Assembly (NCBI GenBank): GCA_030844625.1 | Contig: JAUUNJ010000014.1 | Location: 1-18,973, forward strand | Source: Roseburia sp. | Lineage (GTDB): Bacteria; Bacillota; Clostridia; Lachnospirales; Lachnospiraceae | Reading direction: 5' to 3' | DNA length: 18,973 nucleotides | Part shown: in pieces, positions 157-18,973 of the stretch | Position numbering within the stretch: position 1 is the first letter of the stretch | Layout: every line of letters starts with the position of its first letter | The notes under the pieces: model-generated | What the model was told of the DNA's origin: nothing | Seen by the model: the letters and a program-made list of their open reading frames with translations, nothing else | Database searches by the model: none | Position numbers and translations under genes: made by a program

Positions 157-180
157 AAATTTCTTACACCTTTCATATAT

Positions 181-764: not shown

Positions 765-797
765 TAAATTGTAGTATAGATAGAAAGCAATGAGCAG

Positions 798-843: not shown

Positions 844-882
844 TACTATTGTATTAAGGTGTTTTTGGGTAAGAGAATAGTT

Positions 883-2565: not shown

Positions 2566-2574
2566 GAGGTATAT

Positions 2575-3870
2575 ATGAGAAAGTTCATTAATAGGATAAG
2601 CATAATGGTATTGTGTTCGGCATTCTTATTTACAGGGTGTAACAGTAAGAAAAAGGTAGTGGATCAAGAGTATATAGCGCTAGAAGAATATAAATCGTTT
2701 TGTGGTGAATTGGCTGTTCATAGCGAAATAGATGGTGATTATAGCAGGATATACTACTATGATTATAAGAGCGGAAAGGAAATATTTGCATGCGGGCAGG
2801 CAAATTGCAGTCATCAGTCATCAGATTATATCGCAGGAAAAATAAACTGTAACGCAGTAATAGAAGGCGAAGTACAGTATCCCTTTGTTTATCAGAGTAA
2901 GCTTTATTATTTTGTAGTTAATAGTAATAATTCGGTTCTCTGGAAAAGTAACACGGACGGGACACAAAAGGAAATTGTTGCAGAATTAGAATTTGCCATT
3001 AATAATTGTGAGAGTGCATTTGTAAAAGGAAATGTTTATATTACGTGCAGCAATGTGGAAGAGACTGAGGGCGAAATGAATAAATCATATATAAGTAATA
3101 CAAGAACAGAAATATACAAAGTAGATATTGGAAAAGGTAATGTAGAGCAGATAACTGATATGGGGGAAAAAGCCGAAAGTAATATTAAATATATACGTTA
3201 TTTTGACAATAAATTGTTTTTTGTTTATTCAAGTTCCCAAAAGTCATATGAAGAAGCAGGCTTTGATGGAGCGGATGATTATCTGAAATGGATGGCATCT
3301 GATAATTTTACATATAAGAAAGATATAGAACTTTTGGGAAAAACAGAAAAATGTTATACATATGATTTGGATACAAAAAAAGTAGAGAGAATAGACATTG
3401 ATTTCGAAAGCAATTTTGAACCTTACAAAGGAATAGACGATATGGATACCTATTATGTGTTGGGATACGCAAATGATACAATGTATTATCTAAACTCAGT
3501 AGTAGGAAAATACGCAATTTATTCTTATAACATAAAAACTAAGGAAAGAAAAGAAGTTTTAAGTTGTTTTAAATTAGTGGATGCATATAAAGATAATAAA
3601 ATTTATGTGACTGGTATGGATATGGATGAAAAGACAAAGGATGAACTTATACCATCAGCAGATTTAAATAAAGAGCCGACCTATTATATTATAGATGTAA
3701 AAACAGGAAGTGTGACAAAACAAGACTATGGTGTTGAGGGAAAAATATTATACGTTGTGGATGCAAATAAAGAAGGACTGATTGCATATATAAAAGATTT
3801 TGATGCAATGTATGATACATTGGATGAACATAGTATGTGCACAATAGGGGGAGAAAAGATAAAACAGTAG
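2575..3870 (+). CDS. Lipoprotein with predicted beta-propeller fold and Cys/His cluster
   Basis: The product is 431 residues. The N-terminus MRKFINRISIMVLCSAFLFT is followed by G-Cys22, giving a good lipobox. AGGAGG overlaps the preceding stop codon and fixes the ATG at 2575, so the gene is translationally close to the SBP-like lipoprotein. The mature part has repeated strand patterns of the type YYYDYKSGKEI, LYYFVVNSNNSVLWKSNTDG, EIYKVDIGKGNVEQI, CYTYDLDTKKVERI, AIYSYNIKTKERKEV and YYIIDVKTGSVTK. These are the short strand-turn repeats of beta-propeller proteins (DUF5050/TolB-like). A cluster Cys73-x4-Cys78-x-His80-x11-Cys92 follows the first repeat. Function is unknown. It may bind peptide or partner protein at the surface and work with the ABC exporter encoded next. 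Confidence 0.7.
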   Translation: MRKFINRISIMVLCSAFLFTGCNSKKKVVDQEYIALEEYKSFCGELAVHSEIDGDYSRIYYYDYKSGKEIFACGQANCSHQSSDYIAGKINCNAVIEGEVQYPFVYQSKLYYFVVNSNNSVLWKSNTDGTQKEIVAELEFAINNCESAFVKGNVYITCSNVEETEGEMNKSYISNTRTEIYKVDIGKGNVEQITDMGEKAESNIKYIRYFDNKLFFVYSSSQKSYEEAGFDGADDYLKWMASDNFTYKKDIELLGKTEKCYTYDLDTKKVERIDIDFESNFEPYKGIDDMDTYYVLGYANDTMYYLNSVVGKYAIYSYNIKTKERKEVLSCFKLVDAYKDNKIYVTGMDMDEKTKDELIPSADLNKEPTYYIIDVKTGSVTKQDYGVEGKILYVVDANKEGLIAYIKDFDAMYDTLDEHSMCTIGGEKIKQ

Positions 3871-3925
3871 TTTTTTCTAAGAATGATATTAAAACACACA
3901 GGGAACGGAAGTCTGGGGGCGTAAT

Positions 3926-5887: not shown

Positions 5888-5947
5888 GTGTAGTATGAAA
5901 CGGGAATGTTATTGTATTAGTGGAGAGATATTCAATAAGGAGGAGCT

Positions 5948-6835
5948 ATGTTAGAGATAAGAGAACTTACAAAAAGTTATGGTAATAAAATTGCGCTAAA
6001 CAAATTTAATTTTATTTTTGAAAAAGGAATATATGGTCTGCTGGGACCTAACGGTGCAGGGAAATCCACATTAATGAATATATTAGTAGATGGAATTAAA
6101 AAAAGTAGTGGTGAAATTTTGTACAATGGAAAAAGTATTGAAAAACTTGGGGCGAAATATAGAGATATAATTGGATATGTTCCGCAGCAGCAGGGGTTAT
6201 ATGATACATTTACGGCAGAAGAATTCTTGAATTATATTGGTAATTTAAAAGCAATAAATAAGTCCGAAATAAGAAATAGAATTGATGAGGTATTAGAGTG
6301 CGTAAATTTAAGTAATGAAAAAAGAAGAAAACTTGGCGGATTTTCTGGTGGAATGAAACAAAGAATTTTAATTGCACAGGCATTGATTAATGATCCGGAT
6401 ATATTGATATTAGATGAGCCGACGGCTGGGCTGGACCCGAATGAAAGAATCAGAATAAGAAATTTAATTGCACAAATAAGTATAAATAAAATTGTTATTA
6501 TAGCAACTCATATTGTGTCAGACATTGAATTTATAGCAGGTCACATTATATTGCTTTCAGATGGAAAAATAATAAGAAGTGGTAATCCATCCGAGTTATT
6601 GTCTGAAATAAACGGTTATGTATATGAGGAAATGATTCATGAGGAAAGGGTAAAGGAATACAATGAGAAATATTTAGTAAGCGGTCTTATGGCAGGTGCA
6701 GAACAAATTAAAGTAAGATATATCTGTACAGATAAAGACCACCAAGCGCCAAAGGCAGAAGCAAATCTGGAAGACTACTATTTGTTTATGGAAAATAGTC
6801 ACATTGAAGATGGTGTGAAGCATAATAAAAAGTAA
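5948..6835 (+). CDS. ABC transporter ATP-binding protein (ABC-2/CcmA type)
   Basis: The product is 295 residues. All nucleotide-binding motifs are intact: Walker A GPNGAGKST (33-41), Q-loop around Gln80-82 in VPQQQGLYDTFT, signature FSGGMKQR (132-139), Walker B ILILDEP (152-158, catalytic Glu157), D-loop near Asp163 and H-loop His188 in ATHIVSD. The order and the wording of the motifs fit ATPases that partner ABC-2 permeases in drug, bacteriocin or polysaccharide export and self-protection. The C-terminal tail (about 215-295) is variable, as usual for the group. A perfect AGGAGG precedes the ATG at 5948. It should energise the 653-residue permease encoded just upstream. It is the last gene of the AT-rich locus. 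Confidence 0.92.
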   Translation: MLEIRELTKSYGNKIALNKFNFIFEKGIYGLLGPNGAGKSTLMNILVDGIKKSSGEILYNGKSIEKLGAKYRDIIGYVPQQQGLYDTFTAEEFLNYIGNLKAINKSEIRNRIDEVLECVNLSNEKRRKLGGFSGGMKQRILIAQALINDPDILILDEPTAGLDPNERIRIRNLIAQISINKIVIIATHIVSDIEFIAGHIILLSDGKIIRSGNPSELLSEINGYVYEEMIHEERVKEYNEKYLVSGLMAGAEQIKVRYICTDKDHQAPKAEANLEDYYLFMENSHIEDGVKHNKK

Positions 6836-6874
6836 AATAATTGTTAATATTTTTCTAAAATTAAATAAACTATA

Positions 6875-6903
6875 TTGACAGACCATATATAAAGGGATAA
6901 AAT
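6875..6903 (+). promoter_or_regulatory. Sigma-A promoter of the marR-ABC-ABC operon
   Basis: TTGACA (6875-6880), a 17-bp spacer and TAAAAT (6898-6903). The predicted start near 6910 falls inside the inverted repeat that follows, so a bound repressor would block RNA polymerase. Confidence 0.7.
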
Positions 6904-6950
6904 TGCTAACATCGTTAATTACTAATGGTGTTAGCAATTTGTGGTTTTTA
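6900..6950 (+). terminator. Stem-loop after the ABC ATPase gene; terminator and/or operator
   Basis: AAATTGCTAACA (6900-6911) and TGTTAGCAATTT (6929-6940) form a perfect 12-bp stem that can extend through wobble pairs. It is followed by GTGG and five T (6945-6949). It lies 64 nt after the ABC ATPase stop codon and could terminate the upstream row. The T-run is displaced and short, so an operator role is at least as likely. Confidence 0.45.
6905..6935. promoter_or_regulatory. Two inverted MarR operator-like sites
   Basis: GCTAACATCGTTAAT (6905-6919) and, on the opposite strand, GCTAACACCATTAGT (6935-6921) agree at 12 of 15 positions. Each is itself a pseudo-palindrome (TAAC-3-GTTA type), the size and symmetry expected for a MarR dimer site. 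They begin just after the -10 box and cover the predicted transcription start. Autorepression by the MarR protein encoded at 7002 is inferred from position. Confidence 0.5.
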
Positions 6951-7001
6951 TCAAATATATACATTTAGAGAAAAGGAAAATTTCCGGAAAGAGAATTGTT
7001 T

Positions 7002-7436
7002 ATGAATTATGAAGAAGCAGCAAAAGAATTTGTTCTCCTGATACCTAAAGTCAGGAGGTCTAATGCTGAGAAGCATATTGATATGATTTCCAAGGGAGAA
7101 GTATTTATGCTGGAGTGTGTGGAAAAAAATGGAGGAGTCATTATGCCTGGAGAAATAGCAAAGGCGGTAGGCGTAAGCACGGCGCGTGTGGCAACTTTTT
7201 TAAATGCTGCCGAGAATAAAGGGTATATCAAAAGACAGAATGCAGAAAATGACCGAAGAAAGATTAAGGTTGTTCTTACAGAAGCAGGATTTCAAAGAGT
7301 CAGAAATGAGCGTGAAAGGATGCTTGCAAGAATGACACTCTTTTTTGAAAAACTGGGGGAAGAAGATACTGAAAACCTGATGAGAATTATGAAGAAAATG
7401 CAGGAAATTTTGAACAGTGATGAGTTTAAAAATTAA
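7002..7436 (+). CDS. MarR-family transcriptional regulator
   Basis: The product is 144 residues, a normal MarR length. A winged helix-turn-helix runs from about 32 to 100: GEVFMLECV, then MPGEIAKAVGVSTARVATFL (first and recognition helices), NAAENKGYIKR, and the wing with the family hallmark DRRKIKVVLTEAG. Flanking helices at both ends would form the dimer interface. The ATG at 7002 follows GGAAAGAG; an in-frame TTG at 6996 is a poorer choice. The gene lies directly before two ABC exporter genes (14 nt to the first) and behind a promoter with paired operator-like repeats. It therefore probably represses its own operon and is released by a toxic ligand. The ligand is unknown. Confidence 0.92.
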   Translation: MNYEEAAKEFVLLIPKVRRSNAEKHIDMISKGEVFMLECVEKNGGVIMPGEIAKAVGVSTARVATFLNAAENKGYIKRQNAENDRRKIKVVLTEAGFQRVRNERERMLARMTLFFEKLGEEDTENLMRIMKKMQEILNSDEFKN

Positions 7437-7450
7437 GGAGGCTGATAAAA

Positions 7451-9673
7451 ATGAGACATATTTTTTCAAACTTAAAGAAATACTGGTATCTTGTGTTAAT
7501 GATAGTAGCACTTTTGATGGTTCAGGCATACTGTGATTTGTCCCTGCCGGATTATACATCAAATATTATTGATGTGGGAATTACCAATAGCGGTGTGGAA
7601 CATGTTGTTCCGGAGTACATAACCGAAAAAAGTTATAAACAGATACAGACTTTTTTGACAGAAGATGAAAATGCAGAGTGGGAAAGTGCATATGAATATC
7701 ATAACAGTGATAAAATATACGAATTGAAAAATACAGACCGGGATTATTGGGAAAAATTAGACGATAAATTTCAGAAGCAAATAGCCGTTGTTTATATGAT
7801 GTCTTCTCAGAAAAACTCTGACATGAAAGATATGGATATGACAAATATGACCCCTGACAGTATGACACCGGAGCAGCAAAAGAAAATGCTGGAAGCATTG
7901 GATAAACTGGGTGTTGATGCTGCAAGTCCCACATTAATGCAGGACATAAGGCAGGCGTTTGAGAAAAAAATGTCCACGCTGGGAGATTCCATGATTGCTT
8001 CCTTTGGCAAAACTTTTGCGAAACAGGAATACGAGAGCTGTGGCATAAATATCAATCAAATGCAGTCGGATTATATGTGGCTGACGGGCGGAAAAATGAT
8101 AGCAATGACATTGTTGATGGCATTGGCTTCCATACTGGTGGGTCTGCTTGCATCAAGAGTTTCTGCGGGAGTGGGAAGGGATTTGAGACAAAAAGTATTT
8201 ACTAAAGTAATATCCTTTTCTAATGCAGAGCTGGATAGGTTTTCCACAGCTTCTCTGATTACAAGAAGTACCAATGATGTGCAACAGATACAAATGGTCA
8301 CAGTAATGCTTCTGCGTATGGTTCTGTATGCACCGATTCTTGCAATTGGTGGAATTGTTAATGTCATAAATTATGATTCAGGAATGGAATGGATTATTAT
8401 TCTTGCGATAGCAGTAGTTATTTGTATTATTGTGGTTTTGATGGTAGTTGCAATGCCTAAGTTTAACATTATGCAAAAGCTGGTTGACAGAGTGAATCTT
8501 GTTTCCAGAGAAATTCTTACGGGTCTGCCTGTAATACGTGCTTTTAGCAGAGAGAAAAAAGAAGAGGAAAGATTTGAAGATGCCAATGGCACACTTACCA
8601 AAGTAATGCTTTTTACGAACAGGGCAATGTCATTTATGATGCCGGCATTGATGATTGTAATGAATGGAGTTTCGGTGCTGATTGTCTGGGTGGCTGCCAA
8701 TAAAATTGATGAGGGAGTTTTGGAAGTTGGTTCCATGACAGCCTTTATTACCTATTCCATGATGATTATTATGGGATTTTTAATGCTGACAATAGTTTCA
8801 ATTATGCTTCCAAGAGCAGCAGTTGCAGCAAACCGTATTAATGAGGTTATCAGTACAGAGATTGTTATTGAAGATAAGGAGAATGCCATTACGGCAAAGG
8901 CTGAAAAAGGAATCATTAGGTTTGACCATGTGGATTTTAAATATCCGGACGGAGAAGAAAATGTTCTTCAGGATATAGACTTTGTGGCAGGACCAGGAGA
9001 AACTACTGCAATTATTGGAAGTACCGGAAGTGGAAAGTCCACACTGGCAAAACTGATTCCGAGATTTTTTGACATCACTGACGGTTCTATTACATTGGAT
9101 GGGGTAGACATAAGAGAGATTTCCATTGAGACACTCCGTTCCCAGATTGGTTATGTGCCTCAGCAGGGAGTACTTTTTTCGGGAGATATTAAATCTAATA
9201 TTGCATATGGGGCACCATCTTCCAAAATGAAAGATATTATGGAGGCAGCGGAAATTGCTCAGGCAACAGAGTTTATTGAAAATAAGTCCGAAAAATATGA
9301 CAGTCCGATTGCTCAGGGGGGAACCAATGTTTCCGGAGGTCAGAAACAGAGACTGTCCATTGCAAGAGCAATTGCCAGAAATCCAAAGATCTATATATTT
9401 GATGACAGTTTTTCAGCATTGGATTTTAAGACAGATACACAGCTGAGAAAGGCGTTAAAGCCAAAGACAAAAGATGCTACGGTTCTGATTGTGGCACAGC
9501 GTGTAAGTACGATTTTACATGCCGACCAGATACTTGTTCTGGATGAGGGAAAACTTGTAGGCAAAGGAACACATAAAGAACTTGTGAATAGTTGTGAAAC
9601 ATACAGACAGATTGCACAGTCTCAGCTTTCCGAGGCAGAGTTTACAGCAAGCATAGAAGGAAAGGAGGACTAA
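7451..9673 (+). CDS. Heterodimeric ABC exporter subunit with degenerate ATP site and extracellular insert
   Basis: The product is 740 residues, longer than the usual 570-600 for a half-transporter. The excess lies between the first membrane helix (about 12-30) and the second (about 213-233). This stretch of about 165 residues is predicted to be extracellular and includes a Met-rich segment at 125-146. The nucleotide-binding domain has Walker A GSTGSGKST (523-531), signature VSGGQKQR (627-634) and Walker B ending in Asp651-Asp652, where the catalytic Glu is normally found. Gln683 replaces the switch His. These changes mark the degenerate-site partner of heterodimeric exporters such as LmrCD, BmrCD, EfrAB and TM287/288. 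AGGAGG precedes the ATG. The stop lies 2 nt before the partner gene, so the two are co-translated. Drug or lipid export is the usual role. Confidence 0.9.
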   Translation: MRHIFSNLKKYWYLVLMIVALLMVQAYCDLSLPDYTSNIIDVGITNSGVEHVVPEYITEKSYKQIQTFLTEDENAEWESAYEYHNSDKIYELKNTDRDYWEKLDDKFQKQIAVVYMMSSQKNSDMKDMDMTNMTPDSMTPEQQKKMLEALDKLGVDAASPTLMQDIRQAFEKKMSTLGDSMIASFGKTFAKQEYESCGININQMQSDYMWLTGGKMIAMTLLMALASILVGLLASRVSAGVGRDLRQKVFTKVISFSNAELDRFSTASLITRSTNDVQQIQMVTVMLLRMVLYAPILAIGGIVNVINYDSGMEWIIILAIAVVICIIVVLMVVAMPKFNIMQKLVDRVNLVSREILTGLPVIRAFSREKKEEERFEDANGTLTKVMLFTNRAMSFMMPALMIVMNGVSVLIVWVAANKIDEGVLEVGSMTAFITYSMMIIMGFLMLTIVSIMLPRAAVAANRINEVISTEIVIEDKENAITAKAEKGIIRFDHVDFKYPDGEENVLQDIDFVAGPGETTAIIGSTGSGKSTLAKLIPRFFDITDGSITLDGVDIREISIETLRSQIGYVPQQGVLFSGDIKSNIAYGAPSSKMKDIMEAAEIAQATEFIENKSEKYDSPIAQGGTNVSGGQKQRLSIARAIARNPKIYIFDDSFSALDFKTDTQLRKALKPKTKDATVLIVAQRVSTILHADQILVLDEGKLVGKGTHKELVNSCETYRQIAQSQLSEAEFTASIEGKED

Positions 9674-9675
9674 TT

Positions 9676-11484
9676 ATGGCAGCAAAAATAAATAGAAATG
9701 TTTCGGGAGAAAAGGCAAAGGATTTTAAAGGAACATTTAATAAATTGCTTAATTATATGGGCAGATATAAAATCGCCGTTGTGGCGGTTATGATTTGTGC
9801 AGTTTTAAGTGCTGCATTTTCCATTATCAGTCCGAAGGTGCTTGGTAAAGCAACGACAGCCCTATCGGAAGGAATGATGGCAAAAATTTCAGGGACCGGT
9901 GGAATGGATTTTGATTATATTGGAAAAATTCTGCTTATTGTCATCAGTTTGTATGTAATTAGTTGCATATTTAATCTGATACAGGGATATACAATGTCCA
10001 CAATAACCCAGAAACTGTGTTACAGATTACGCAAGGAGATTGTTGAGAAAATCAACCGCATGCCAATGAAATATTTTGAAAGCCGAACCTATGGTGAGGT
10101 GCTTTCAAGGATTACTAATGACGTGGATACTTTTGGTAACGGTCTGAACCAGAGCATCACCCAGTTAATAACATCTGTCACAACTATGATCGGTGTAGTT
10201 ATAATGATGCTTACAATCAGTCCTCTTATGACATTGATAACATTATTAATTTTACCTGTGAGCATGGGATTTATAGGTACTATTATGAAAAAGTCACAGA
10301 AACATTTTAAAGTGCAGCAGGAATATCTGGGGCATATTAATGGACAGGTGGAAGAAAATTATAGCGGTCATCTGGTTGTTAAAGCATTTGGAAAAGAGCG
10401 GGAAGTAATCCAAGAGTTTAACAGAGTCAATGATGTACTTTACAAGTCAGCATGGAAATCCCAGTTTTTGTCAGGACTGATGCAGCCGGTAATGATGTTC
10501 GTTGGCAATCTCGGATATGTGGGAGTAGCCATTTCAGGCGCGTTCCTCGCAATTAATGGGACGATCACCATTGGTGATATTCAGGCATTTATTGTATATG
10601 TGAAGAACTTTACCCAGCCAATGCAGCAAATTGCACAGGTTACTAATATGATGCAGTCAATGATGGCGGCGGCTGAAAGAGTTTTTGAATTCCTTGAAGA
10701 AGAGGAAGAGGACCAGATTACAGAAAATGCTGTTTCTGTGGAAAACGTAGAAGGTGTTGTTGATTTTGAACATGTACATTTTGGATATAATCAGGATCAT
10801 ATTATTATTAATGACTTTAATGCTCATGTAAAACAGGGACAGCAGATTGCAATTGTAGGACCGACAGGGGCAGGAAAGACAACAATGGTTAAACTGTTAA
10901 TGCGGTTCTATGATGTGAATGGTGGTGAAATCAAACTGGATGGTCATAATTTAAAAGATTATAACAGAAATGAACTTAGAAGTGCTTTCGGAATGGTTCT
11001 TCAGGACACATGGCTGTTCAAGGGGTCAATTATGGAAAATATCAGATATGGAAGACTGGAGGCTACAGATGAAGAAGTCATTGCAGCAGCTAAGTCTGCC
11101 CATGCACACCATTTCATAAAAACACTTCCGGGTGGGTATAATTTTGAATTAAATGAAGAGGCGTCCAATGTTTCTGCGGGACAGAGACAGCTGCTTACAA
11201 TAGCCCGTGCCATTCTTGCAGATAATCCGGTTTTGATTCTTGACGAGGCAACTTCATCTGTTGATACAAGAACAGAACACAGAATTCAAAGAGCTATGGA
11301 TAACCTGATGAAAGGAAGAACCAGTTTTGTCATTGCCCATCGTTTAAGCACAATAAAAAATGCAGATCTTATTCTTGTAATGAAAGATGGAGATATTATT
11401 GAGCAGGGAACTCATGACGAATTAATTCAAAAGAAAGGATTTTACTCAGAGATGTACAACTCCCAGTTTGATGTTGTTGCATAA
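9676..11484 (+). CDS. Heterodimeric ABC exporter subunit with catalytic ATP site
   Basis: The product is 602 residues, a standard half-transporter: an N-terminal six-helix membrane domain (about 30-330) and a C-terminal ATPase. Walker A is GPTGAGKTT (395-403). Walker B ends in LILDEATSS with catalytic Glu524, and the switch His555 is present in IAHRLST. The signature is VSAGQRQ (Ser500-Ala501-Gly502-Gln503) instead of SGGQ. This is complementary to the upstream subunit: each defective element would face a normal one in the dimer, giving one catalytic and one degenerate ATP site. It starts 2 nt after the upstream stop, with GGAGG inside the end of that gene. It forms the second half of the MarR-controlled efflux pump. 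Confidence 0.93.
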   Translation: MAAKINRNVSGEKAKDFKGTFNKLLNYMGRYKIAVVAVMICAVLSAAFSIISPKVLGKATTALSEGMMAKISGTGGMDFDYIGKILLIVISLYVISCIFNLIQGYTMSTITQKLCYRLRKEIVEKINRMPMKYFESRTYGEVLSRITNDVDTFGNGLNQSITQLITSVTTMIGVVIMMLTISPLMTLITLLILPVSMGFIGTIMKKSQKHFKVQQEYLGHINGQVEENYSGHLVVKAFGKEREVIQEFNRVNDVLYKSAWKSQFLSGLMQPVMMFVGNLGYVGVAISGAFLAINGTITIGDIQAFIVYVKNFTQPMQQIAQVTNMMQSMMAAAERVFEFLEEEEEDQITENAVSVENVEGVVDFEHVHFGYNQDHIIINDFNAHVKQGQQIAIVGPTGAGKTTMVKLLMRFYDVNGGEIKLDGHNLKDYNRNELRSAFGMVLQDTWLFKGSIMENIRYGRLEATDEEVIAAAKSAHAHHFIKTLPGGYNFELNEEASNVSAGQRQLLTIARAILADNPVLILDEATSSVDTRTEHRIQRAMDNLMKGRTSFVIAHRLSTIKNADLILVMKDGDIIEQGTHDELIQKKGFYSEMYNSQFDVVA

Positions 11485-11577
11485 CAAGAATCAGATGATT
11501 AGAAATTGACGAATACTTTAAAAAATTAAACAAAAACTTTAGATTATTTTGAAAAGTGGCTTGAGAACTAAAAGAAG

Positions 11578-11606
11578 TTGACGATTAAACTTAATATATT
11601 TATAAT
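11578..11606 (+). promoter_or_regulatory. Strong sigma-A-like promoter ahead of a terminator hairpin
   Basis: TTGACG (11578-11583), a 17-bp spacer and a perfect TATAAT (11601-11606). The predicted start near 11613 lies only about 5 nt before the hairpin at 11618. It is the only good promoter between the ABC exporter genes and the ATP-grasp operon. Confidence 0.6.
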
Positions 11607-11617
11607 AATTAACAAAC

Positions 11618-11660
11618 AAAGACGTTTTGCATTTTTTTTGCAGGGCGTCTTTTTTTCTTT
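11618..11660 (+). terminator. Intrinsic terminator or leader attenuator
   Basis: AAAGACGTTTTGCA (11618-11631) pairs with TGCAGGGCGTCTTT (11639-11652) over 14 bp, including three G-U pairs. The loop is seven T, and the stem leads into a T-tract to 11660 broken by one C. It stands 134 nt after the ABC exporter operon and could end that transcript. Its place directly after a promoter also makes it a candidate attenuator for the following operon. Confidence 0.85.
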
Positions 11661-11763
11661 TACTAGGGGGTGCCGGGATTAAGGGACGACAGGCTTTAGT
11701 TTAGGTAAATAAGCGGACAGGGAGATGGATTTCTGTCTGCAAAAAAGACTAGGAGTGATGTAT
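11661..11763 (+). other. GC-rich, possibly structured leader of the ATP-grasp operon
   Basis: After the AT-rich promoter region the sequence becomes G-rich (for example GGGGGTGCCGGG, 11666-11677). It contains the stem GCGGACAG/CTGTCTGC (11713-11720 and 11733-11740), 8 bp with one G-U pair, ending 10 nt before the ribosome binding site AGGAG (11751-11755). The motif ACTAGG-(G/A)-G occurs both at 11662 and at the ribosome binding site (11749). No known riboswitch class was recognised. Confidence 0.35.
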
Positions 11764-13083
11764 ATGAAGAATGTGGATCTTTACCGCCATACAGAGACGG
11801 TGAATGAATTACTTGCCAGATATGGAGTGAAGTTTGGTATTTATAAAAATAATATATTTAGGGAGCAACTGTTTCCCTTTGATGCAATTCCTCGGGTTAT
11901 TCCTCACAACGAATTCGATTATCTTGAAAGAGGATTGAAGCAGAGAGTTATGGCTCTCAATTTGTTTATAAAGGATATATATGGGGATAAAAAGATTATC
12001 AGAGATAAAGTGGTGCCGGAGGAATTTGTTTATGTCTCCAGTGGATATCTGGCACAATGTGAAGGTGTGATGCCATCCAAAGGAATTTACAGCCATATAT
12101 CCGGAATTGATCTGGTTCAGGGGAAAAACAAGGAATGGTATGTGCTTGAAGATAATCTGAGGGTGCCTTCCGGGGCGTCTTACCCAATGATTGCCAGAGA
12201 ATTATGCAGAAGAAGCAGTCCTGAAACTTTCAGACAGTATCATATAGAAGATAACAGAAACTATGCCAAACTGCTTCGAAAGTCTATGGATTATGTTAAC
12301 ACAGGAGGACATACCGTAATACTTACTCCAGGCAGGTATAATGCGGCATATTTTGAACATTCCTATCTGGCAGAGAAAACAGGAGCTCATCTTGTAACGG
12401 GCAATGAACTGATTGTGGAAAATGATCACCTGTATTTTATTGATTATTCCGGAAAGAAAGAGCAGGTAGGGGCTGTGTACCGCAGGATTTCTGATGAGTA
12501 TCTGGACCCGATGAATTTCAATAAAGAATCGTTGATTGGAATTCCGCATATATACGATATTTTCCGAAAAGGTAATGTGGCATTATTGAATGCACCGGGA
12601 AATGGTGTTGCGGATGATAAAGGGATTTATTATTTTGTTCCTAAGATGGTGAAATATTATTTGGGAGAAGATTCCATATTGCAGAATGCTCCTACATATT
12701 TACCGTTTTATAAAGAAGATATGGACTATGTATTGAGTAACTTTGATAATCTGGTGCTGAAAGATGTGGCAGAAGCAGGCGGATACGGAGTTGTCTTTGG
12801 AAACTCAATGACATCGAAGCAGAAAGAACAGTTCATTGAAATGTTAAAGAAAGAGCCGCGAAGGTTTATTGCTCAGGAGGTTATTGACTTCCTGGATATA
12901 GATATAATGGATGGAAAGGAAATTGTAGCAAGAAAGGCAGACTTAAGAGCATTTGTTGTCATGGGAGAAGAACCCATGGTATGGAAGAGCGGTCTGACCA
13001 GGTTTTCCAGAAATCCGGATTCATTTATAGTTAATTCGTCACAGGGAGGAGGATTTAAAGACACATGGGTATTATCTCAGTAG
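11764..13083 (+). CDS. Circularly permuted ATP-grasp amidoligase (COG2308)
   Basis: The product is 439 residues. The family hallmarks appear in order: LEDNLRVPSG (128-137), GNGVADDK (279-286), LKDVAEAGGYG (332-342, Lys333 and the glycine loop probably binding ATP), FIAQEVIDF, DLRAFVV and the closing SSQGGGFKDTW (from about 425). Proteins of this type are predicted to form amide or peptide bonds using ATP. The true substrates are unknown. The ATG at 11764 is chosen because AGGAG lies 8 nt upstream; earlier in-frame ATGs at 11725 and 11758 are too close to their purine-rich stretches. The common GGLTR motif reads KSGLTR here. The gene overlaps the next by 19 nt, and the alpha-E and transglutaminase neighbours are the standard partners of this family. 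The family call is firm; its reaction is inferred. Confidence 0.92.
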   Translation: MKNVDLYRHTETVNELLARYGVKFGIYKNNIFREQLFPFDAIPRVIPHNEFDYLERGLKQRVMALNLFIKDIYGDKKIIRDKVVPEEFVYVSSGYLAQCEGVMPSKGIYSHISGIDLVQGKNKEWYVLEDNLRVPSGASYPMIARELCRRSSPETFRQYHIEDNRNYAKLLRKSMDYVNTGGHTVILTPGRYNAAYFEHSYLAEKTGAHLVTGNELIVENDHLYFIDYSGKKEQVGAVYRRISDEYLDPMNFNKESLIGIPHIYDIFRKGNVALLNAPGNGVADDKGIYYFVPKMVKYYLGEDSILQNAPTYLPFYKEDMDYVLSNFDNLVLKDVAEAGGYGVVFGNSMTSKQKEQFIEMLKKEPRRFIAQEVIDFLDIDIMDGKEIVARKADLRAFVVMGEEPMVWKSGLTRFSRNPDSFIVNSSQGGGFKDTWVLSQ

Positions 13084-13730
13084 AAAACACAGACAGATTA
13101 TTTTGGCTGGGGCGCTATAGCGAGAGAGTTTATACAACTACCCGCTTATTTGCAGACAGTTATGATCAGATGATCGATATAGATTTTAATAATTATGAGG
13201 ATTTTTGCAGAAGGCTGGATATTCCCAACATATATAAATCAAAAGAAGATTTTGTGGAAAAATACAGTTTTGATGAATATAATCCCAATTCAATTTACGC
13301 CAATTTGATGAGGGCTTATGACAATGCAATTGTTTTAAGAGAGGAAATCGGAAGTGAAACTCTTTCCTATGTGCAGCTTGCAGTATATGAAATGCAGAAA
13401 GCAAAGACCTCTTCTGCACCCCTGATTGAATTACAGAAGGTAATTGACAATATACTGGCATTTTGGGGAATTGCAGATGACAGAATTGATGATGAGAATG
13501 TAAGAAATATCATTAAGGTAGGAAAACGGATAGAGAGGCTTGATTTGTATGGAAGATTACACATGAATCCTGAAGAGATTACCAGAGAGGTTTGCAGGCT
13601 CAGTGATAGAATTGCCAGGACATGTCTGTCATACAGTATGGATAATCTTAAAGTATTAAATGAGATTGTCCGAAAAGAGGAAATGGATTATTATAATGTT
13701 GTACAAAAGGTTGACGGACTGGTGGAATAA
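13065..13730 (+). CDS. Alpha-E domain protein (COG2307)
   Basis: The product is 221 residues, shorter than many alpha-E proteins (about 300). The opening ENTDRLFWLGRYSERVYTTT matches the hallmark start of the family (A-x-x-L-x-W-x-GRY-x-ER-x-x-x-x-R). The rest is almost wholly helical, and LSDRIARTCLSYSMDN lies near the end. The function of alpha-E proteins is not established; they nearly always accompany a COG2308 ATP-grasp ligase and are thought to be its partner or substrate-binding subunit. The ATG at 13065 overlaps the ligase gene by 19 nt, with GGGAGGAGG (13044-13052) 12 nt upstream, so translation is coupled. Confidence 0.88.
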   Translation: MGIISVENTDRLFWLGRYSERVYTTTRLFADSYDQMIDIDFNNYEDFCRRLDIPNIYKSKEDFVEKYSFDEYNPNSIYANLMRAYDNAIVLREEIGSETLSYVQLAVYEMQKAKTSSAPLIELQKVIDNILAFWGIADDRIDDENVRNIIKVGKRIERLDLYGRLHMNPEEITREVCRLSDRIARTCLSYSMDNLKVLNEIVRKEEMDYYNVVQKVDGLVE

Positions 13731-13754
13731 TAGTCCGTAGTGAGGAGCAGCATT

Positions 13755-14543
13755 ATGAAAAATTTGCATTTTAATTATACTATGAAAATACAGTTTGACA
13801 GCCCTATCAGGGAACATAGATTTACGTTAAAATGTACACCTGTATCAAATGACAGACAGACAATAACAAATTTTAATATTGATGTATTTCCAAAAGAATT
13901 TTTGGGTACAGATATGGACGCTTTTGGAAATTCATGCATTTATGGATATTCGGAACATAAGCATAATCACTTTTCGATTCACATAGAAGGTGATGCAAGG
14001 ACAGGTCTTCTGGAATATGAGAAAGCAGGAGATGAATACGATATTGGTTTGTACAAGTATCAGACAGATTATACAAGACCGGGAACAAAGCTAAAACAGT
14101 TTTTTGAAGATCATTTTATAAAGCTAAATGGAATGTCCAATTTGGATAAAGCAATTACTTTTATGCAATGTTTGTATGATAATTTTCAGTATGTTTCGGG
14201 AGTTACAGATATTTATACAACAGCCGAAGAGGCATTAGAGCTTGGAAAGGGTGTGTGTCAGGATTATTCCCACATAATGATTTCCCTTTGCCGGATGGCA
14301 AATATTCCGGCAAGATATGTGGTAGGAATGTTAATCGGTGAGGGTCTGAGCCATGCGTGGGTAGAAATATTTCATCAGGGGAAATGGATTGCACTGGATC
14401 CTACCAACAATCTAATTGTAAATGATGAGCATATAAAGATATCTAATGGCAGGGATTATAAGGACTGCACAATAAACCAGGGTATTTTCACGGGACAGGC
14501 AAACCAGATTCAGGAAATTAGTGTCAGTGTAACGGAGAGCTAG
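13755..14543 (+). CDS. Transglutaminase-like cysteine protease/transferase (COG1305)
   Basis: The product is 262 residues with no signal peptide, so it is probably cytoplasmic. An N-terminal beta-rich region (about 1-95: MKNLHFNYTMKIQFDSPIRE and following strands) resembles the N-terminal domain common in bacterial transglutaminase-like proteins. The catalytic triad is visible: Cys168 in GKGVCQDYSH, His200 in LSHAWVEIF and Asp215 in ALDPTNN. Such proteins cleave or transfer acyl groups at amide bonds. In this operon type the enzyme is thought to trim, release or transfer the product of the ATP-grasp ligase. The ATG at 13755 is supported by GAGGAG (13742-13747) 7 nt upstream; an upstream GTG at 13740 lacks this. 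Confidence 0.9.
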   Translation: MKNLHFNYTMKIQFDSPIREHRFTLKCTPVSNDRQTITNFNIDVFPKEFLGTDMDAFGNSCIYGYSEHKHNHFSIHIEGDARTGLLEYEKAGDEYDIGLYKYQTDYTRPGTKLKQFFEDHFIKLNGMSNLDKAITFMQCLYDNFQYVSGVTDIYTTAEEALELGKGVCQDYSHIMISLCRMANIPARYVVGMLIGEGLSHAWVEIFHQGKWIALDPTNNLIVNDEHIKISNGRDYKDCTINQGIFTGQANQIQEISVSVTES

Positions 14544-14613
14544 AATTTATCTGATTTCATCTAAATAGAAAACAACAACTATGGTGACTGAAAAATAATG
14601 AGGTATTAAGGAA

Positions 14614-15549
14614 ATGTTAAGAACAGTAGCAAAGACAGAACTTCCTGTAGATGAAGTGCTGTCCATCAGAAAGAATAGAATTGAGCCGGAAACCGGTTCT
14701 AATGGAAAAAGAATAAGTATTGTTACGGGAATTCACGGTGACGAGCTGGAGGGACAGTTTGTATGCTATGAGATTTCCAGAAGGATTAAGGAACATCCTG
14801 AATATTTAAAGGGAACAGTGGATATTTATCCTGCCATGAATCCTTTCGGAATAAACTCAGTCACCAGAGGAATTCCTGCTTTTGATTTAGACATGAACAG
14901 AATTTTTCCCGGCAGGGAAGATGGAGATATGAATGAATATCTGGCTTCAAAAATTATTGAAGACTTGGAAGGCTCAGACCTCTGCATTGATATTCATGCC
15001 AGTAACATTTACTTGACGGAGGTTCCGCAGATTCGCATTAATGAGATTAACAGGGATGTTCTGGTGCCGTTGGCAAAACTGGCAAATGTTGATTTTATAT
15101 GGATTCACGGAAACAGCACTGTTTTGGAGGCTACCCTTGCATACAGTATGAACTCAAGAAACGTACCAACTCTTGTGGTGGAAATGGGAGTTGGAATGAG
15201 AATTACTCAGGAATATGGAAATCAGCTTACCAATGGAATCTTCAGACTGATGAAAGAATTGGAAATTTGGGATGGCCCGGCAGAAGAAGTAAGGAAACCG
15301 GTTATATCTGATAATCCCCCTGATGTGGAATTTTTGAATGCTTCGGTTTCGGGTGTTTTTATAAAAGATATTCTTCACGGAAGTAATGTAATAAAAGGGC
15401 AGCATCTGGGATATATTGTTGATCCTTTGAATGGAGAAATGCTAAGTGATGTGAAATCCCCTGTGGACGGATGGTTGTTTACAATTAGGGAATATCCGAT
15501 TGTGGATGAGGGCTCGTTGATGGCGCGAATACTCAGGGTGAAGAGATAA
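14614..15549 (+). CDS. Aspartoacylase/succinylglutamate desuccinylase-like zinc deacylase, intact active site
   Basis: The product is 311 residues, the usual AstE/AspA length. The M14-like zinc site is complete: His41 and Glu44 in GIHGDELEG, His128 in IDIHAS, the substrate-binding Asn95-Arg96 in DLDMNRIFPG and the catalytic Glu190 in VEMG. A C-terminal beta domain (about 238-311) with SPVDGWLF is also typical. The family removes acyl groups from amino acids or peptides by hydrolysing an amide bond. It lies 70 nt after the transglutaminase-like gene and directly before a paralogue, and is presumably part of the same operon. The ATG at 14614 has TAAGGA very close and GAGG 10 nt upstream. The substrate is unknown; cleavage of an amide made by the COG2308 ligase is a reasonable inference. 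Confidence 0.88.
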   Translation: MLRTVAKTELPVDEVLSIRKNRIEPETGSNGKRISIVTGIHGDELEGQFVCYEISRRIKEHPEYLKGTVDIYPAMNPFGINSVTRGIPAFDLDMNRIFPGREDGDMNEYLASKIIEDLEGSDLCIDIHASNIYLTEVPQIRINEINRDVLVPLAKLANVDFIWIHGNSTVLEATLAYSMNSRNVPTLVVEMGVGMRITQEYGNQLTNGIFRLMKELEIWDGPAEEVRKPVISDNPPDVEFLNASVSGVFIKDILHGSNVIKGQHLGYIVDPLNGEMLSDVKSPVDGWLFTIREYPIVDEGSLMARILRVKR

Positions 15550-15572
15550 GAGTGAATAGTGAAGAGGAAAAG

Positions 15573-16505
15573 ATGGAAGAGAAAGTTTTATTTGAGATAA
15601 AGGATATTTATAGAGATACATTCAGGGTGACAGGTTTTTCTTTTGGAAAAGGGGAGAAAACCATATGTATTGTGGGAAGCACCCGTGGCAATGAGAATCA
15701 GCAGCTTTTTACATGTTCCCAGCTTATTAAAAAACTGGCAGAGCAGGAAGAGAAAGGAAGACTGGCAGAAGGAGTGGAGATTCTTGTAATTCCATGTGTC
15801 AATCCATATTCCATGAACATCAAAAAGAGATTTTGGACGGTAGACAACACTGATATTAACAGAATGTTTCCGGGATATGATCTGGGAGAGACAACCCAGA
15901 GAATTGCCGCGGGGGTATTTGACGTAATAAAGGATTATAAATACGGAATTCAGTTTGCATCATTTTATATGCCGGGGGCATTTCTTCCGCAGATTCGTGT
16001 GATGAAGACCGGGTTTGAGGATGTGGAGCTGGCAAAGCAGTTTGGTCTGCCATATGTGGTACTGCACAATCCAAGACCTTTTGATACTGCCACATTGAAC
16101 TATAACTGGCAGATATGGGAGACTAAGGCGTTTTCGTTGTATACAACCAACACCTCCCGAATTGACAAAAAGAGTGGGAAGCAGGCAGTGGAGGCAATTC
16201 TTAATTTTATGTCGAAGCAGGAAATTATTAATAACGAGTACAGAGCAAGGGCAGGATACATTTCACGAGTTATCGAAAGTAATGATATGATTTCGGTCAG
16301 AACCAAGGCTTCCGGTTTCTTTGACAGCCAGGTTGCCCCGGGAGAGGAAGTGGAGGAAGGTCAGCTTCTTGCAAGAATTATAGATACTTACCGAGGAACA
16401 GTAAAGAGCGAGATATTTTCTCCGGTAGAAGGTGTAGTGGCATTTCTTCATGATGAGGCAATGACTTATGAGGACACGGCAGTGATAAAACTAATTGGGG
16501 AATAG
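15573..16505 (+). CDS. Aspartoacylase-like paralogue, predicted pseudoenzyme
   Basis: The product is 310 residues, nearly the same length as the gene before it. The fold-defining parts are kept: the NTDINRMFPG loop (Asn96-Arg97, matching DLDMNRIFPG), LPQIRV matching VPQIRI, and the C-terminal beta domain with SPVEGVVAF. The active site is not. GIHGDELEG reads GSTRGNENQ, so the first zinc His is Arg38 although Glu41 remains. IDIHAS reads IQFAS, with Ala129 or Ser130 where the second His should be. The VEMG segment reads YTTN, losing the catalytic Glu. A hydrolase with these changes should not bind zinc normally. It may regulate, bind substrate for, or form a heteromer with the active partner. 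The ATG at 15573, with GAGG (15564-15567) 5 nt upstream, is preferred to the GTG at 15552. Confidence 0.82.
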   Translation: MEEKVLFEIKDIYRDTFRVTGFSFGKGEKTICIVGSTRGNENQQLFTCSQLIKKLAEQEEKGRLAEGVEILVIPCVNPYSMNIKKRFWTVDNTDINRMFPGYDLGETTQRIAAGVFDVIKDYKYGIQFASFYMPGAFLPQIRVMKTGFEDVELAKQFGLPYVVLHNPRPFDTATLNYNWQIWETKAFSLYTTNTSRIDKKSGKQAVEAILNFMSKQEIINNEYRARAGYISRVIESNDMISVRTKASGFFDSQVAPGEEVEEGQLLARIIDTYRGTVKSEIFSPVEGVVAFLHDEAMTYEDTAVIKLIGE

Positions 16506-16536
16506 GTAAGAATGCTATTCATTTTTATATTTTAGT
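16500..16536 (+). terminator. Weak terminator-like hairpin at convergent gene ends
   Basis: GAATAG (16500-16505) and CTATTC (16515-16520) form a 6-bp stem with a 9-nt loop, followed by ATTTTTATATTTT. It overlaps the stop codons of both convergent genes. The stem is short and AT-rich, so termination would be weak. Confidence 0.3.
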
Positions 16537-17477
16537 ACAAAGTCATGTTTTAAATTTAAAAGCTCCTGCATTTGTTTTAGCATATAAAATAAGATAGCTC
16601 TTGCTTCAAATTCTTCCCTGATTTGTGGCATTTCCTCATTTTTTAATGTTAATAATAGGTTATCTAATTCCATGAGTAAATTTTCTACGTTGTTGTATCT
16701 GTGATATTCTAAAGATACTTTATTTATAAAATTGGAAACCATATTTGCCTGTTCAGGTAAAAAAGTAATCATGAGAATACTTTTATAAATGTTTTCTAAA
16801 ACCATACGTTGTTTTTGACGCATTTCTACATAAGCAATTTCATAGGCTGAATTATGAAGAATTACATTACCATAATTGTTGAGTGCACATAATTTTGCGG
16901 CGGATAGTTTTTCATCTAAATGTTCAAAACATTTCCCGTCATAAATGTTTTCATCTTTTGTCAGAATTTGTGAAGACATGCGCTCTAAAATGCCTTTCAC
17001 TTCATTGTCAACTTCATCAGCAAGTCTAATAAATTCATTGCTATTTTTTCGAAGCATTAAATTGATAATGACTCCATACCCCGTTCCTATTATAAAAAGA
17101 AATATTTCATTGCTGATAAGAGAAACAGATATATTGCCATTCGTTAAAAAATGTGTAATTAATACCGAGTCCATGGCAATTGCTTCTTTTAAATTAAATT
17201 TTAGACAGACCAAAACAAATGTGAAAATATAAATACTAAATCCCAAAGTATTGAAGCCGAACAAATAAAAGCATACAAATGCAATTATAAGTGCACACAA
17301 AAATGCAATGGAACGCTTCGCTGCGGTTTTTAAAGTTTCTCTTTTGGTTCCACCTATACTTAGTATCGTTATGATGCCCGCAGTTACACTGTATTGTAAA
17401 TTGAAGAAGTTGGCTGTAATAATTGACAGAATACAGGCGCTGGCTATTTTTAATGATCTAACAAATAATTCTTTCAT
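16515..17477 (-). CDS. Aromatic-acid exporter family membrane protein (FUSC/ArAE-like)
   Basis: The product is 320 residues. The first 145 contain about six closely packed membrane helices, with the conserved pattern YSVTAGIITILS in the second and the short loop GGTKRETLKTAAKR after it. This is typical of the FUSC/ArAE_1 (COG4129) group. Residues about 145-320 are charged and helical, matching the cytoplasmic C-terminal domain of that family. These proteins are predicted to export aromatic acids or similar compounds, but few are characterised. The ATG at 17477-17475 lacks a clear ribosome binding site. The gene is much more AT-rich (about 27-32% G+C in sampled lines) than its neighbours on both sides, which hints at separate origin. 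Its end is 9 nt from the convergent deacylase-like gene. Confidence 0.82.
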   Translation of the reverse strand: MKELFVRSLKIASACILSIITANFFNLQYSVTAGIITILSIGGTKRETLKTAAKRSIAFLCALIIAFVCFYLFGFNTLGFSIYIFTFVLVCLKFNLKEAIAMDSVLITHFLTNGNISVSLISNEIFLFIIGTGYGVIINLMLRKNSNEFIRLADEVDNEVKGILERMSSQILTKDENIYDGKCFEHLDEKLSAAKLCALNNYGNVILHNSAYEIAYVEMRQKQRMVLENIYKSILMITFLPEQANMVSNFINKVSLEYHRYNNVENLLMELDNLLLTLKNEEMPQIREEFEARAILFYMLKQMQELLNLKHDFVLKYKNE

Positions 17478-17542
17478 AATATATTTAATGTATCACATCT
17501 TTTAAATTTTAATCAATTAAATTTTTAATTTGATTTTATTTT

Positions 17543-17580
17543 AGGGATAAAATATACTAAGCCAAGTTTATTTTATCCCT
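17543..17580. repeat. 12-bp perfect inverted repeat between the acyl ligase and the exporter gene
   Basis: AGGGATAAAATA (17543-17554) and TATTTTATCCCT (17569-17580) are perfect reverse complements around a 14-nt spacer. No T-run follows on either strand, so a standard terminator is unlikely, although it lies only 13 nt after the ligase stop codon. Read leftward, TTGGCT, 17 bp and TAAAAT form a possible promoter whose -35 lies in the spacer and whose -35 to -10 gap holds one arm. An operator for the exporter gene is possible. Confidence 0.5.
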
Positions 17581-17593
17581 CGTCAGGTCTGTT

Positions 17594-18973
17594 TTAATAA
17601 CGCTTAATCTTCTTTGACGGTGTCTTTTCAAATTCCGTTTTGCGAATTTTCAGTCTGTATATTCTTTTATGTGCAGGAGCCGTTTTATTATATTCATCAA
17701 TGAGCTGCTGTAAAGCATCACGAATATCATTTACAGCATTCTTTTCTGCAAACTCATGATCCGGGAAAACTTCTGCCTCAATGACACCCTCGCTTTCCCG
17801 TACGAGAATTTCCTGAACGAGAGGGCTCTCTCCAAGTTTATTCTCCAGTTCCTCGGGAGAAACATTTTCTCCGTTTTTGGTAATAATAAGATTTTTCTTA
17901 CGGCCTGTGATAAATACAAAGTTCTCATCATTCACGTACCCCAGATCTCCGGTTTTCAGCCAGCCATCTTCCAGTGCTTCCGCGGTCTGCTCAGGCATCT
18001 GGTAATAACCCATCATAACGCTGCTTCCGCGAACCCATATCTCACCATCAACAATTTTTGCTTCGCAGTTTGGCATTAACTGTCCAACGGATTGTTTGTT
18101 GATGTTCCAGCTTCGGTTTGTACTGATGACTGGTGCACATTCTGTCATTCCATATCCCTGAAGAATCGTAATTCCGTAAGAGTTAAACAGGTCAATGTAT
18201 GCCGGATTTAGGTAGGCACCACCACTGCAAATCGTATGAAACTGTTCGCCAAATACTTCCCTTTTGACAATTTCGGTTGGAAGTCCTGCTGCATCCTGAA
18301 GTTTTTTCGCAAAGGACTCAATCATAAGCGGCACCATGAGAATCATGTTTGGCGCAAACAATTTAATATTTTTAACAACACGCATCAGGGAATCATTAAT
18401 ACAGATAATACTTCCTAAAGAAATACCCTTTAAAATATCCATACTGAGACAATAAGCATGATGTATTGGGAGCACCGATAAAATAACGGTTCTTTCCGGG
18501 ATTTTCATATCCAGACAGGTTGCATTTTCAGCCATATTTCTGTGAGTAAGCATTACCCCTTTGCTTTTTCCTGTTGTTCCGGAAGTAAACATAATGGTAC
18601 AAAGTTGTTCCGGGTCTGGAGTAAAATCAAAAGAGCCTGCATTTTCACATAGCAATTGGGTCAGAGAAAGCATATGCTCATCACTTTCTGCTTTCTGCAT
18701 AGAGATGATATGCTTTAATTTCGGGCAACGCTCTTTTGCAATGACAGAGATATCTTTCCGGACTTCATCCAAAACAAGAACGGTTACATTGGCTCTGTCA
18801 ATGAGATTGCATACTTCCTCTGCGGGAAGAGATACGTCGAGAGGGACGGCAACACTGCCGCTATTAACGGTTCCTAAATAGGAAATCAGCCAATGGTAGG
18901 AGGTAAGACCTATCATTGCAACATGTTCATTTAGTGCATCTAGTTTTCCGAGCACATTGGAGAAACTTTCGCT
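17594..18973 (-). CDS. AMP-forming acyl-CoA synthetase/ligase (5' end beyond window)
   Basis: The frame is open to the window edge. The fragment of 459 residues starts SESFSNVLGKLDALNEHVAM, so the Val at codon 7 (a GTG at 18955) is an internal residue and not a start. The domain motifs of the adenylate-forming family are in order: phosphate-binding loop TSGTTGKSKG (130-139 of the fragment), YGMTECAPVIS, GEIWVRGSSVMMGYY, WLKTGDLGYV, the hinge-region TGRKKNLIITKNGENVSPEE and the C-terminal catalytic Lys in TPSKKIKRY. The enzyme activates a carboxylic acid, probably a fatty or aromatic acid, with ATP and passes it to CoA or a carrier protein. The N-terminal part of roughly 30-60 residues is missing. 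The downstream exporter is on the same strand, 116 nt away; a functional link is only a guess. Confidence 0.93.
   Translation of the reverse strand, partial: SESFSNVLGKLDALNEHVAMIGLTSYHWLISYLGTVNSGSVAVPLDVSLPAEEVCNLIDRANVTVLVLDEVRKDISVIAKERCPKLKHIISMQKAESDEHMLSLTQLLCENAGSFDFTPDPEQLCTIMFTSGTTGKSKGVMLTHRNMAENATCLDMKIPERTVILSVLPIHHAYCLSMDILKGISLGSIICINDSLMRVVKNIKLFAPNMILMVPLMIESFAKKLQDAAGLPTEIVKREVFGEQFHTICSGGAYLNPAYIDLFNSYGITILQGYGMTECAPVISTNRSWNINKQSVGQLMPNCEAKIVDGEIWVRGSSVMMGYYQMPEQTAEALEDGWLKTGDLGYVNDENFVFITGRKKNLIITKNGENVSPEELENKLGESPLVQEILVRESEGVIEAEVFPDHEFAEKNAVNDIRDALQQLIDEYNKTAPAHKRIYRLKIRKTEFEKTPSKKIKRY

Follow-up and report, generated by a model that had tools for sequence, protein, structure and literature searches.

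A five-gene ATP-grasp operon of the Lachnospiraceae with an active/inactive deacylase pair and a leader element shared with nitrogen assimilation genes

In the Proteobacteria and the Cyanobacteria, ATP-grasp ligases of the COG2308 type are encoded together with Alpha-E and transglutaminase-like proteins in a set that goes with Anbu, and the product of this set has stayed unknown in the parts of the published accounts considered here (PMC5666114, PMC6376114; these and all other articles cited below are drawn on in part). A stretch of 18,973 nucleotides (nt) from Roseburia sp. (GenBank assembly GCA_030844625.1, contig JAUUNJ010000014.1, positions 1 to 18,973; hereafter, the window) raises the question of what such a core might do, and when, in the company of a different kind of hydrolase. 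All five open reading frames (ORFs) of the cluster are present on its + strand at 11764-16505: the ligase (g1), the Alpha-E protein (g2), a transglutaminase-like cysteine amidohydrolase (g3) and two genes of the AstE/AspA deacylase family (g4 and g5). The unit, the pair, the active sites and a leader element shared with glnA, GSIII, amtB-PII, gltB and amino-acid uptake genes can be read from the sequences themselves, and they suggest, with a probability put at roughly 55%, that the operon would serve under nitrogen limitation, as a module by which an amide bond is made and later opened.

The initial annotation, made from the letters of the window, had taken the five same-direction genes with small gaps for one operon built on an amide-ligase core, and both proposals are borne out. 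The Pfam scores of g1 to g5, including those for the COG2308, Alpha-E and transglutaminase-like families of the core, all exceed the curated cut-offs, and the catalytic triad of g3 is kept in its relatives (C173 and H205 in 120/120, D220 in 119/120); a search of solved structures with the Alpha-E protein returned weak unrelated matches only. The ligase and Alpha-E genes overlap by 19 nt, g2 and g3 are separated by 9 nt with GTG 13740 as start or by 24 nt with ATG 13755 (the better Shine-Dalgarno sequence by eye), the first deacylase gene follows g3 after 70 nt, and the g4-g5 gap is 2 nt with GTG 15552 or 23 nt with ATG 15573. On the + strand, a terminator scan found no terminator-like site between the end of g1 and that of g5, and two weak ones within g1, with 4 sites found in all in the scanned region versus a chance expectation of 2.6. 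Upstream, a terminator-like site lies between g1 and its neighbour, an ABC exporter gene, and downstream g5 ends 9 nt from a convergent gene of the ArAE_1 (aromatic acid exporter) family. Judged by coordinates and spacing, the five genes are one operon.

Conservation of gene order points in the same direction. A scan of the genome collection with the g5 alignment yielded at least 586 confirmed relatives, and in the best 80 of these the five genes were found in order, on one strand and within 6 kilobases (kb) at 71 loci; about four of the remaining nine are cut by contig ends, and the others have lost or displaced genes. Since this sample is biased to g5, a ligase-centred sample was also taken, consisting of 397 genomes from the family of genome G001, inferred to be the Lachnospiraceae. 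PF14403 was matched (expectation value, E, of at most 0.001) in 70 of them, many matches being weak or fragmentary and 48 exceeding 1 kb. For 42 of these 48 full-length ligases, g4 and g5 both follow downstream on the same contig. In G281, G319 and G559 a contig end interrupts the locus, and the ligases of G470, G576 and G589 come without the pair. A class-wide draw of 196 genomes, including G001, held a full-length ligase in four, accompanied by the pair in 4/4, and a phylum-wide draw of 299, also including G001, contained g5 in three genomes, one further row matching a different AstE/AspA gene weakly. The operon is concentrated in the family sampled and patchy within it, and broken copies of g1 occur among the 397 genomes. 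A conserved sixth operon gene was ruled out, no neighbour family being present in more than 12 of 83 loci; a C26 (PuuD-type) family adjoins the operon in six of these. At five loci (L018, L052, L012, L020, L142) the middle of the operon is missing and the late part of g4 or g5 stands directly after g1, g3 or the leader, and operon decay seems to proceed by loss of its middle. Operon genes are also seen in bins named Treponema or Spirochaetaceae (L017, L023, L037, L077), through either transfer or mis-binning; PF14403 was matched in 3/100 genomes from the family of one such bin, and two Treponema contigs carry additional reading frames between operon genes.

The two deacylase genes had been described as an active and an inactive member of one family, and their residues agree. 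In the window, g4 presents the complete active site, with an H-E-H metal site (H41, E44, H128) and a catalytic Glu (E190), retained in 136, 143, 144 and 144 of 144 relatives, respectively. The corresponding columns of g5 hold R45, E48, A136 and Y197, the last two taken from a joint alignment of g4 and g5 and not from a separate mapping (F135, N200). Across 148 relatives of g5, R45, E48, N103, R149 and Y197 are each found in 148/148, and the third-ligand column holds A (100), T (31), P (8), S (6), G (1), R (1) and one more, with no H listed. An active g5 is ruled out by the replacement of three of the four catalytic columns in all 148 relatives, and the gene product is, by its predicted active site, a true pseudoenzyme. 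It is conserved about as strongly as g4, the mean distances being 0.455 (g5) versus 0.397 (g4) in 50 operons and 0.421 versus 0.503 in 49 stand-alone pairs. CphZ (8eip) ranks with the best matches to solved structures for both models, and the solved relatives with a named activity, DoeB (6twm) and CphZ, act, by their titles, on a small acyl-amino acid and a dipeptide; g4 scores below the cut-offs of those NCBIfam models that matched. One g5 relative of 477 amino acids (P0046) has an internally duplicated middle part.

The association within the pair is closer than that between the pair and the ligase. In the 397 genomes, g4 was detected at E≤1e-50 as 95 genes in 84 genomes, and g5 at E≤1e-20 as 99 genes in 87, the count being that of 102 rows less one fragment and two cross-matches to g4. 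Every one of the 95 g4 genes has g5 directly downstream, and 95 of the 99 g5 genes have g4 directly upstream, while of the other four, those of G329 and G446 belong to broken operons, that of G411 lies at a contig end and that of G266 is on its own. Going by coordinates, 43 of the 95 pairs stand behind a ligase and 52 lie apart from one; with G281, G334 and G559 recognized as contig-split operons, the division becomes 46 versus 49. On the trees, the label operon or stand-alone changes seven times for g5 (110 rows) and six times for g4 (109 rows), versus about 36 in shuffles, of which 0/500 were as low, the label of a few rows (L023, L152) depending on contig ends. Operon and stand-alone pairs hence form largely separate lineages, and, with about half of them standing alone as such a lineage, the g4-g5 pair is a module of its own. 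The co-occurrence with COG2308 expected in the initial annotation stands when viewed from the ligase, 42 of 48 carrying the pair, and holds for about half of the cases when viewed from the pair. As to whether the pair is usually found apart from COG2308, the outcome is mixed: it is apart in 49-52 of 95 cases, yet those cases are largely a separate lineage. A purL-type gene, so assigned after a Pfam scan of one member, is found downstream of the pair on its strand at 29 of 48 stand-alone loci (L155-L204); where a next gene is present (46 loci), it is that gene in 23. Several g4 genes of these purL-linked pairs have lost H41 or R96, which hints at a changed chemistry.

Between the exporter gene and g1, a promoter-like site is followed directly by a hairpin with a U tract. 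Promoter-like sites with at least 9/12 consensus bases show no excess in the scanned window region (18 versus 18.2 in shuffles), yet 39 of 53 aligned leaders have one at most 50 nt before the hairpin, versus 5.4 in shuffles, and 36, versus 0.8, have one there at 10/12 or better. These leaders derive from 71 of 150 that met a selection pattern, of which 58 were distinct and 53 were aligned, five near-copies being left out; since the pattern demanded G-R-C-G / C-G-Y-C, including G at loop position 4, the invariance of these columns is partly by choice. Independent support comes from a scan using energy and T tract, in which 110 of 148 regions before g1 gave a hairpin, versus 32 of 154 random stretches of the same loci, in a set that includes some genomes more than once, and from matches at nitrogen genes, described below. 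In the 53 leaders, the 13 pairs of the terminator helix are formed in 96.9% of cells, with a covariation of 0.511 versus 0.232 in shuffles. The 5' arm can alternatively fold into a small hairpin with a six-base loop, R-A-R-G-R-C, whose four pairs also covary (0.422 versus 0.246). The same pairing was recovered in all 34 non-training sites looked at (93.2% of cells, 0.581 versus 0.275), found with a covariance model, R1, that was trained on operon leaders only and contains the terminator helix and no such pairs; loop G4 is nearly invariant in these sites, and an earlier subset of 18 sites plus the window gave the same result. The leader was rejected as a known Rfam element, the window giving no match at gathering scores. 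It is possibly a one-hairpin relative of the targets of ANTAR antiterminators, in which hexaloop hairpin and terminator are mutually exclusive (PMC3369931, PMC3369936).

Table 1. Features of the operon and its leader in the window.
Feature	Position	Strand	Evidence
Promoter-like site, TTGACG-17-TATAAT	11578..11606	+	11/12 consensus bases
Conserved leader element, model R1	11606..11660	+	54 bits, E 3.3e-9; window leader itself among the 53 training rows
Mini-hairpin AAAC-[AAAGAC]-GTTT, ANTAR-P2-like hexaloop	11614..11627	+	covariation; mutually exclusive with terminator
Terminator hairpin, then U tract	11618..11652	+	terminator scan, helix covariation, fold of window leader
g1, circularly permuted ATP-grasp ligase, COG2308 type	11764..13083	+	PF14403 (CP_ATPgrasp_2) 445 bits; PDB 3n6x E 8.3e-106
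g2, Alpha-E protein	13065..13730	+	PF04168 76 bits, cut-off 20.8
g3, transglutaminase-like cysteine amidohydrolase	13740..14543, start perhaps ATG 13755	+	PF01841 (Transglut_core) 77 bits, PF08379 (Bact_transglu_N)
g4, AstE/AspA (M14) deacylase, complete active site	14614..15549	+	AstE_AspA_cat (PF24827) 81 bits
g5, AstE/AspA pseudoenzyme	15552..16505, start perhaps ATG 15573	+	AstE_AspA_cat 44 bits

Run at E≤0.1 on 71 loci of the first scan, R1 matched within 400 nt upstream in 51 of 65 loci with g1, among them 21 of 35 not used in training, five of these 21 being near-copies of training rows. Around pairs or g5 genes without a nearby ligase (54 loci), there were two weak matches, that of L181 lying 24 nt before the g4 of a purL-linked pair. 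Searches of four whole genomes, in which only 150 candidates per genome were scored and sites may hence have been missed, gave 29 rows, of which 14, all distinct sites, reached E≤0.01; of the 15 weaker rows, five were the same sites on the other strand, seven had E of 0.3-0.9, and three were inspected, two of them lying at an amino-acid ABC transporter and an AsnC-type regulator. Two of the 14 strong sites belong to the operon, and the first genes behind the other 12 are glnA (2), GSIII (2), an amtB-PII fusion (2), gltB (1), the amino-acid binding protein SBP_bac_3 (2), a class-III aminotransferase (2) and GH84 (1). Nitrogen genes thus follow eleven of these 12 sites, nine serving core assimilation or the uptake of amino acids and two encoding aminotransferases, and at both glnA sites, in two genomes, an ANTAR gene lies behind glnA. 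Because R1 sites elsewhere precede such genes, the leader of the operon is that of the core nitrogen assimilation genes. Neither this leader nor the absence of Anbu figured in the initial annotation. The element (window 11578-11660, L276-L288) is common to the operon, glnA, GSIII, amtB-PII, gltB and amino-acid transport genes. This nitrogen link agrees with the regulation of related operons, the Burkholderia cenocepacia homologues in the BCAM1233-1236 cluster being described as NtrC/sigma54-dependent (PMC5491218) and Anbu as upregulated in nitrogen-limited Pseudomonas putida (PMC5666114).

Taken together, these observations suggest a mechanism that can be laid out in order. When nitrogen is short, an RNA-binding antiterminator, for which the ANTAR protein encoded behind glnA would be the best candidate, may stabilise the hexaloop hairpin; the terminator could then not form, and the five genes would be read. 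The ATP-grasp enzyme, helped by the Alpha-E protein, would use ATP to join a carboxylate, with glutamate as a guess, to an amine-bearing compound, and the transglutaminase-like enzyme and the M14 deacylase would open amide bonds further on, freeing usable amino nitrogen. The initial annotation had likewise envisaged a make-and-break cycle, for a peptide or acyl-amino acid, in which these two enzymes would act on the amide made by the ligase arm. The order of ligation and then hydrolysis can be likened to that of the gamma-glutamylputrescine (Puu) route. The M14 enzyme would work in complex with the pseudoenzyme, as beta-MPP does with alpha-MPP of the mitochondrial processing peptidase, and because g5 keeps its pocket arginines while its metal site is gone, it might hold or orient the substrate or the partner. 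The pair would fill the hydrolase slot held by Anbu in other phyla. PF00227 (the proteasome/HslV family, to which Anbu is related) was matched in 0/40 operon-bearing genomes, versus 10/14 controls, and the ten window ORFs that were scanned, among them every one in 11764-18955, included no Anbu-type gene; the place of Anbu seems to be taken by the M14 pair. For the ligation step, an ATP-grasp protein of Yersinia is described as releasing phosphate from ATP (PMC6376114). A fuller formulation is offered tentatively, at slightly less than an even chance: that the Lachnospiraceae COG2308 system serves nitrogen scavenging, with Anbu replaced by a metal-enzyme/pseudoenzyme pair, within a nitrogen regulon under the control of a promoter-proximal antitermination RNA with one hairpin.

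Several observations weigh against a nitrogen-limitation module of this kind. About half of all pairs lack a ligase, and the pair would therefore have at least one job that does not involve it. In 14 of the 65 ligase loci, R1 was not matched within 400 nt at E≤0.1; in seven of these it lies further off, 3.9-4.9 kb upstream, where it stands at an amino-acid ABC transporter (preceded in L059 by another frame), and the other seven do not have it there either. One strong site precedes a gene for a GH84 N-acetylglucosaminidase (L276:4-3058, -), the sole one of the 12 without an evident nitrogen role, and the third of the weaker sites inspected has no near gene on its strand. The P1 hairpin of ANTAR targets was found within 40 nt upstream in 3 of 53 leaders, versus 4.2 in shuffles, and likewise at 70 and 100 nt, its place being occupied by the promoter, and the first base of the loop is A in 38 of the 53 and G in 15. 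A canonical two-hairpin ANTAR site was rejected on the first count, and on both counts the regulator may be something other than an ANTAR protein. The g4-g5 complex is suggested by co-conservation alone, and limitation, as opposed to excess, by the company of glnA, amtB and gltB. For the Anbu form itself, the cited work was unable to demonstrate either an activity of Anbu or complexes among the operon proteins (PMC6376114). At the GH84 site, amino-sugar nitrogen may perhaps be involved. At seven loci (L059, L065, L066, L070, L071, L074, L076), an amino-acid ABC transporter lies between a leader element and g1, joined in several of them by a cytidylate-kinase-like gene, as though the operon had grown at its upstream end.

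The strongest claims for another function come from the core and from the pair, taken separately. A system of peptide tagging and protein recycling, in which ligase and transglutaminase tag proteins and the hydrolases trim the tag, has been proposed for the Anbu operon, whose core genes are the same (PMC5666114, PMC6376114), and nitrogen starvation would favour protein recycling; it is nonetheless unlikely here, since all 40 operon genomes gave no proteasome-family match and the solved relatives with a named activity, DoeB and CphZ, act by their titles on a small acyl-amino acid and a dipeptide. There is a similarly small chance that the operon shares leader and site but no pathway, the pair being an independent module recruited next to the ligase core and acting on an unrelated acyl-amino acid. 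The pairs that occur alone, often before purL (29 of 48 loci, directly in 23 of 46), and the three full-length ligases without a pair speak for such recruitment, whereas the separate lineages, with six to seven label changes versus about 36, and the presence of the pair behind nearly every ligase speak against it.

A cyanophycin-like nitrogen store, an isopeptide made by the ATP-grasp enzyme and later hydrolysed by the M14 enzyme as beta-Asp-Arg is by CphZ, is quite unlikely. The position of CphZ among the best structural matches of both models is in its favour, as is the role of M14-type isoaspartyl dipeptidases in cyanophycin use, those of the Firmicutes being called undiscovered in the part of the article drawn on here (PMC10206079). 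Cyanophycin synthetase (TIGR02068), however, exceeded its curated cut-off in 0/80 pair-bearing genomes (80 of the 84 g4-bearing ones being searched) and in 0/80 others, with weaker matches in all 160, and cyanophycin itself was rejected as the substrate on this ground. Stores are, moreover, normally made in excess, and the shared leader points to limitation genes; both the gene company of the leader and the synthetase result favour scavenging over storage. That the hairpin at 11618-11652 might be only the terminator of the upstream ABC exporter gene, with no role in operon regulation, is suggested by its position 133 nt past the stop codon, where a terminator is expected, and is very unlikely: the promoter lies upstream of the hairpin, the element keeps its place before the operon even as the neighbours vary, none of their families occurring at over 12 of 83 loci, and the same element precedes nitrogen genes elsewhere.

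A nitrogen-limitation module, if that is what the operon is, would bear on a product that had remained out of sight in the Anbu form. The leader common to glnA, GSIII, amtB and gltB supplies a condition to look under, nitrogen limitation, and because it does so in agreement with the quite different regulation in Burkholderia and Pseudomonas, the question of the product can be put to a direct test. Why a dead enzyme should be kept by a bacterium is a question for which the inseparable active/inactive pair makes a clean case, and the leader is a compact handle on nitrogen control in gut Lachnospiraceae. Further afield, ArAE_1 family genes both adjoin the operon (the convergent gene, window 16515-17477) and stand between leader element and transporter (L059:1425-1952), perhaps by chance, and a small secreted-looking protein of 129 amino acids is encoded at window 375-764, ahead of a gene cluster at 859-6835 that includes an ABC ATPase.

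In the Puu route, ATP-dependent ligation comes first and amide hydrolysis later, for nitrogen use; the proposed scheme shares this order, with no homologous ligase, and the likeness is an analogy only. The same holds for the mitochondrial processing peptidase, in which an active metallo-hydrolase (M16B beta) needs an inactive homologue (alpha) for substrate binding and whose prokaryotic M16B forms come from two-gene operons (PMC11266112), that enzyme belonging to M16 rather than M14 and acting on peptides. With the AstE/AspA deacylases (PF24827; DoeB 6twm, CphZ 8eip), g4 shares the fold and all metal and catalytic residues, and it differs in being always followed, in the family sampled, by an inactive copy and in scoring below the NCBIfam cut-offs of the matching models. 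The leader may resemble the ANTAR targets of eut, nasF and amiE in its G4 hexaloop, in a 3' stem that overlaps the terminator and in its position before nitrogen genes (PMC3369931, PMC3369936), and differs from them in its single hairpin directly behind the promoter, with no P1 above chance and a mixed first loop position; it was not described in the literature searched, although the supplementary tables of ANTAR sites (PMC3369931) lay outside that search and an earlier mention is possible. Likewise, the literature searched held no account joining COG2308 with AstE/AspA genes, the founding paper (Iyer et al., 2009) lying outside the search and possibly containing one. The three-gene core and its Anbu form are already known; the five-gene form that lacks Anbu and has an M14 enzyme/pseudoenzyme pair was not met in that literature, nor was its leader. 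The closest counterpart hence remains the Anbu operon, with the same three core families, a hydrolase gene downstream and a link to nitrogen in Burkholderia and Pseudomonas (PMC5491218, PMC5666114), from which the present operon differs in carrying an M14 enzyme and an M14 pseudoenzyme instead of Anbu, and a leader terminator instead of NtrC/sigma54.

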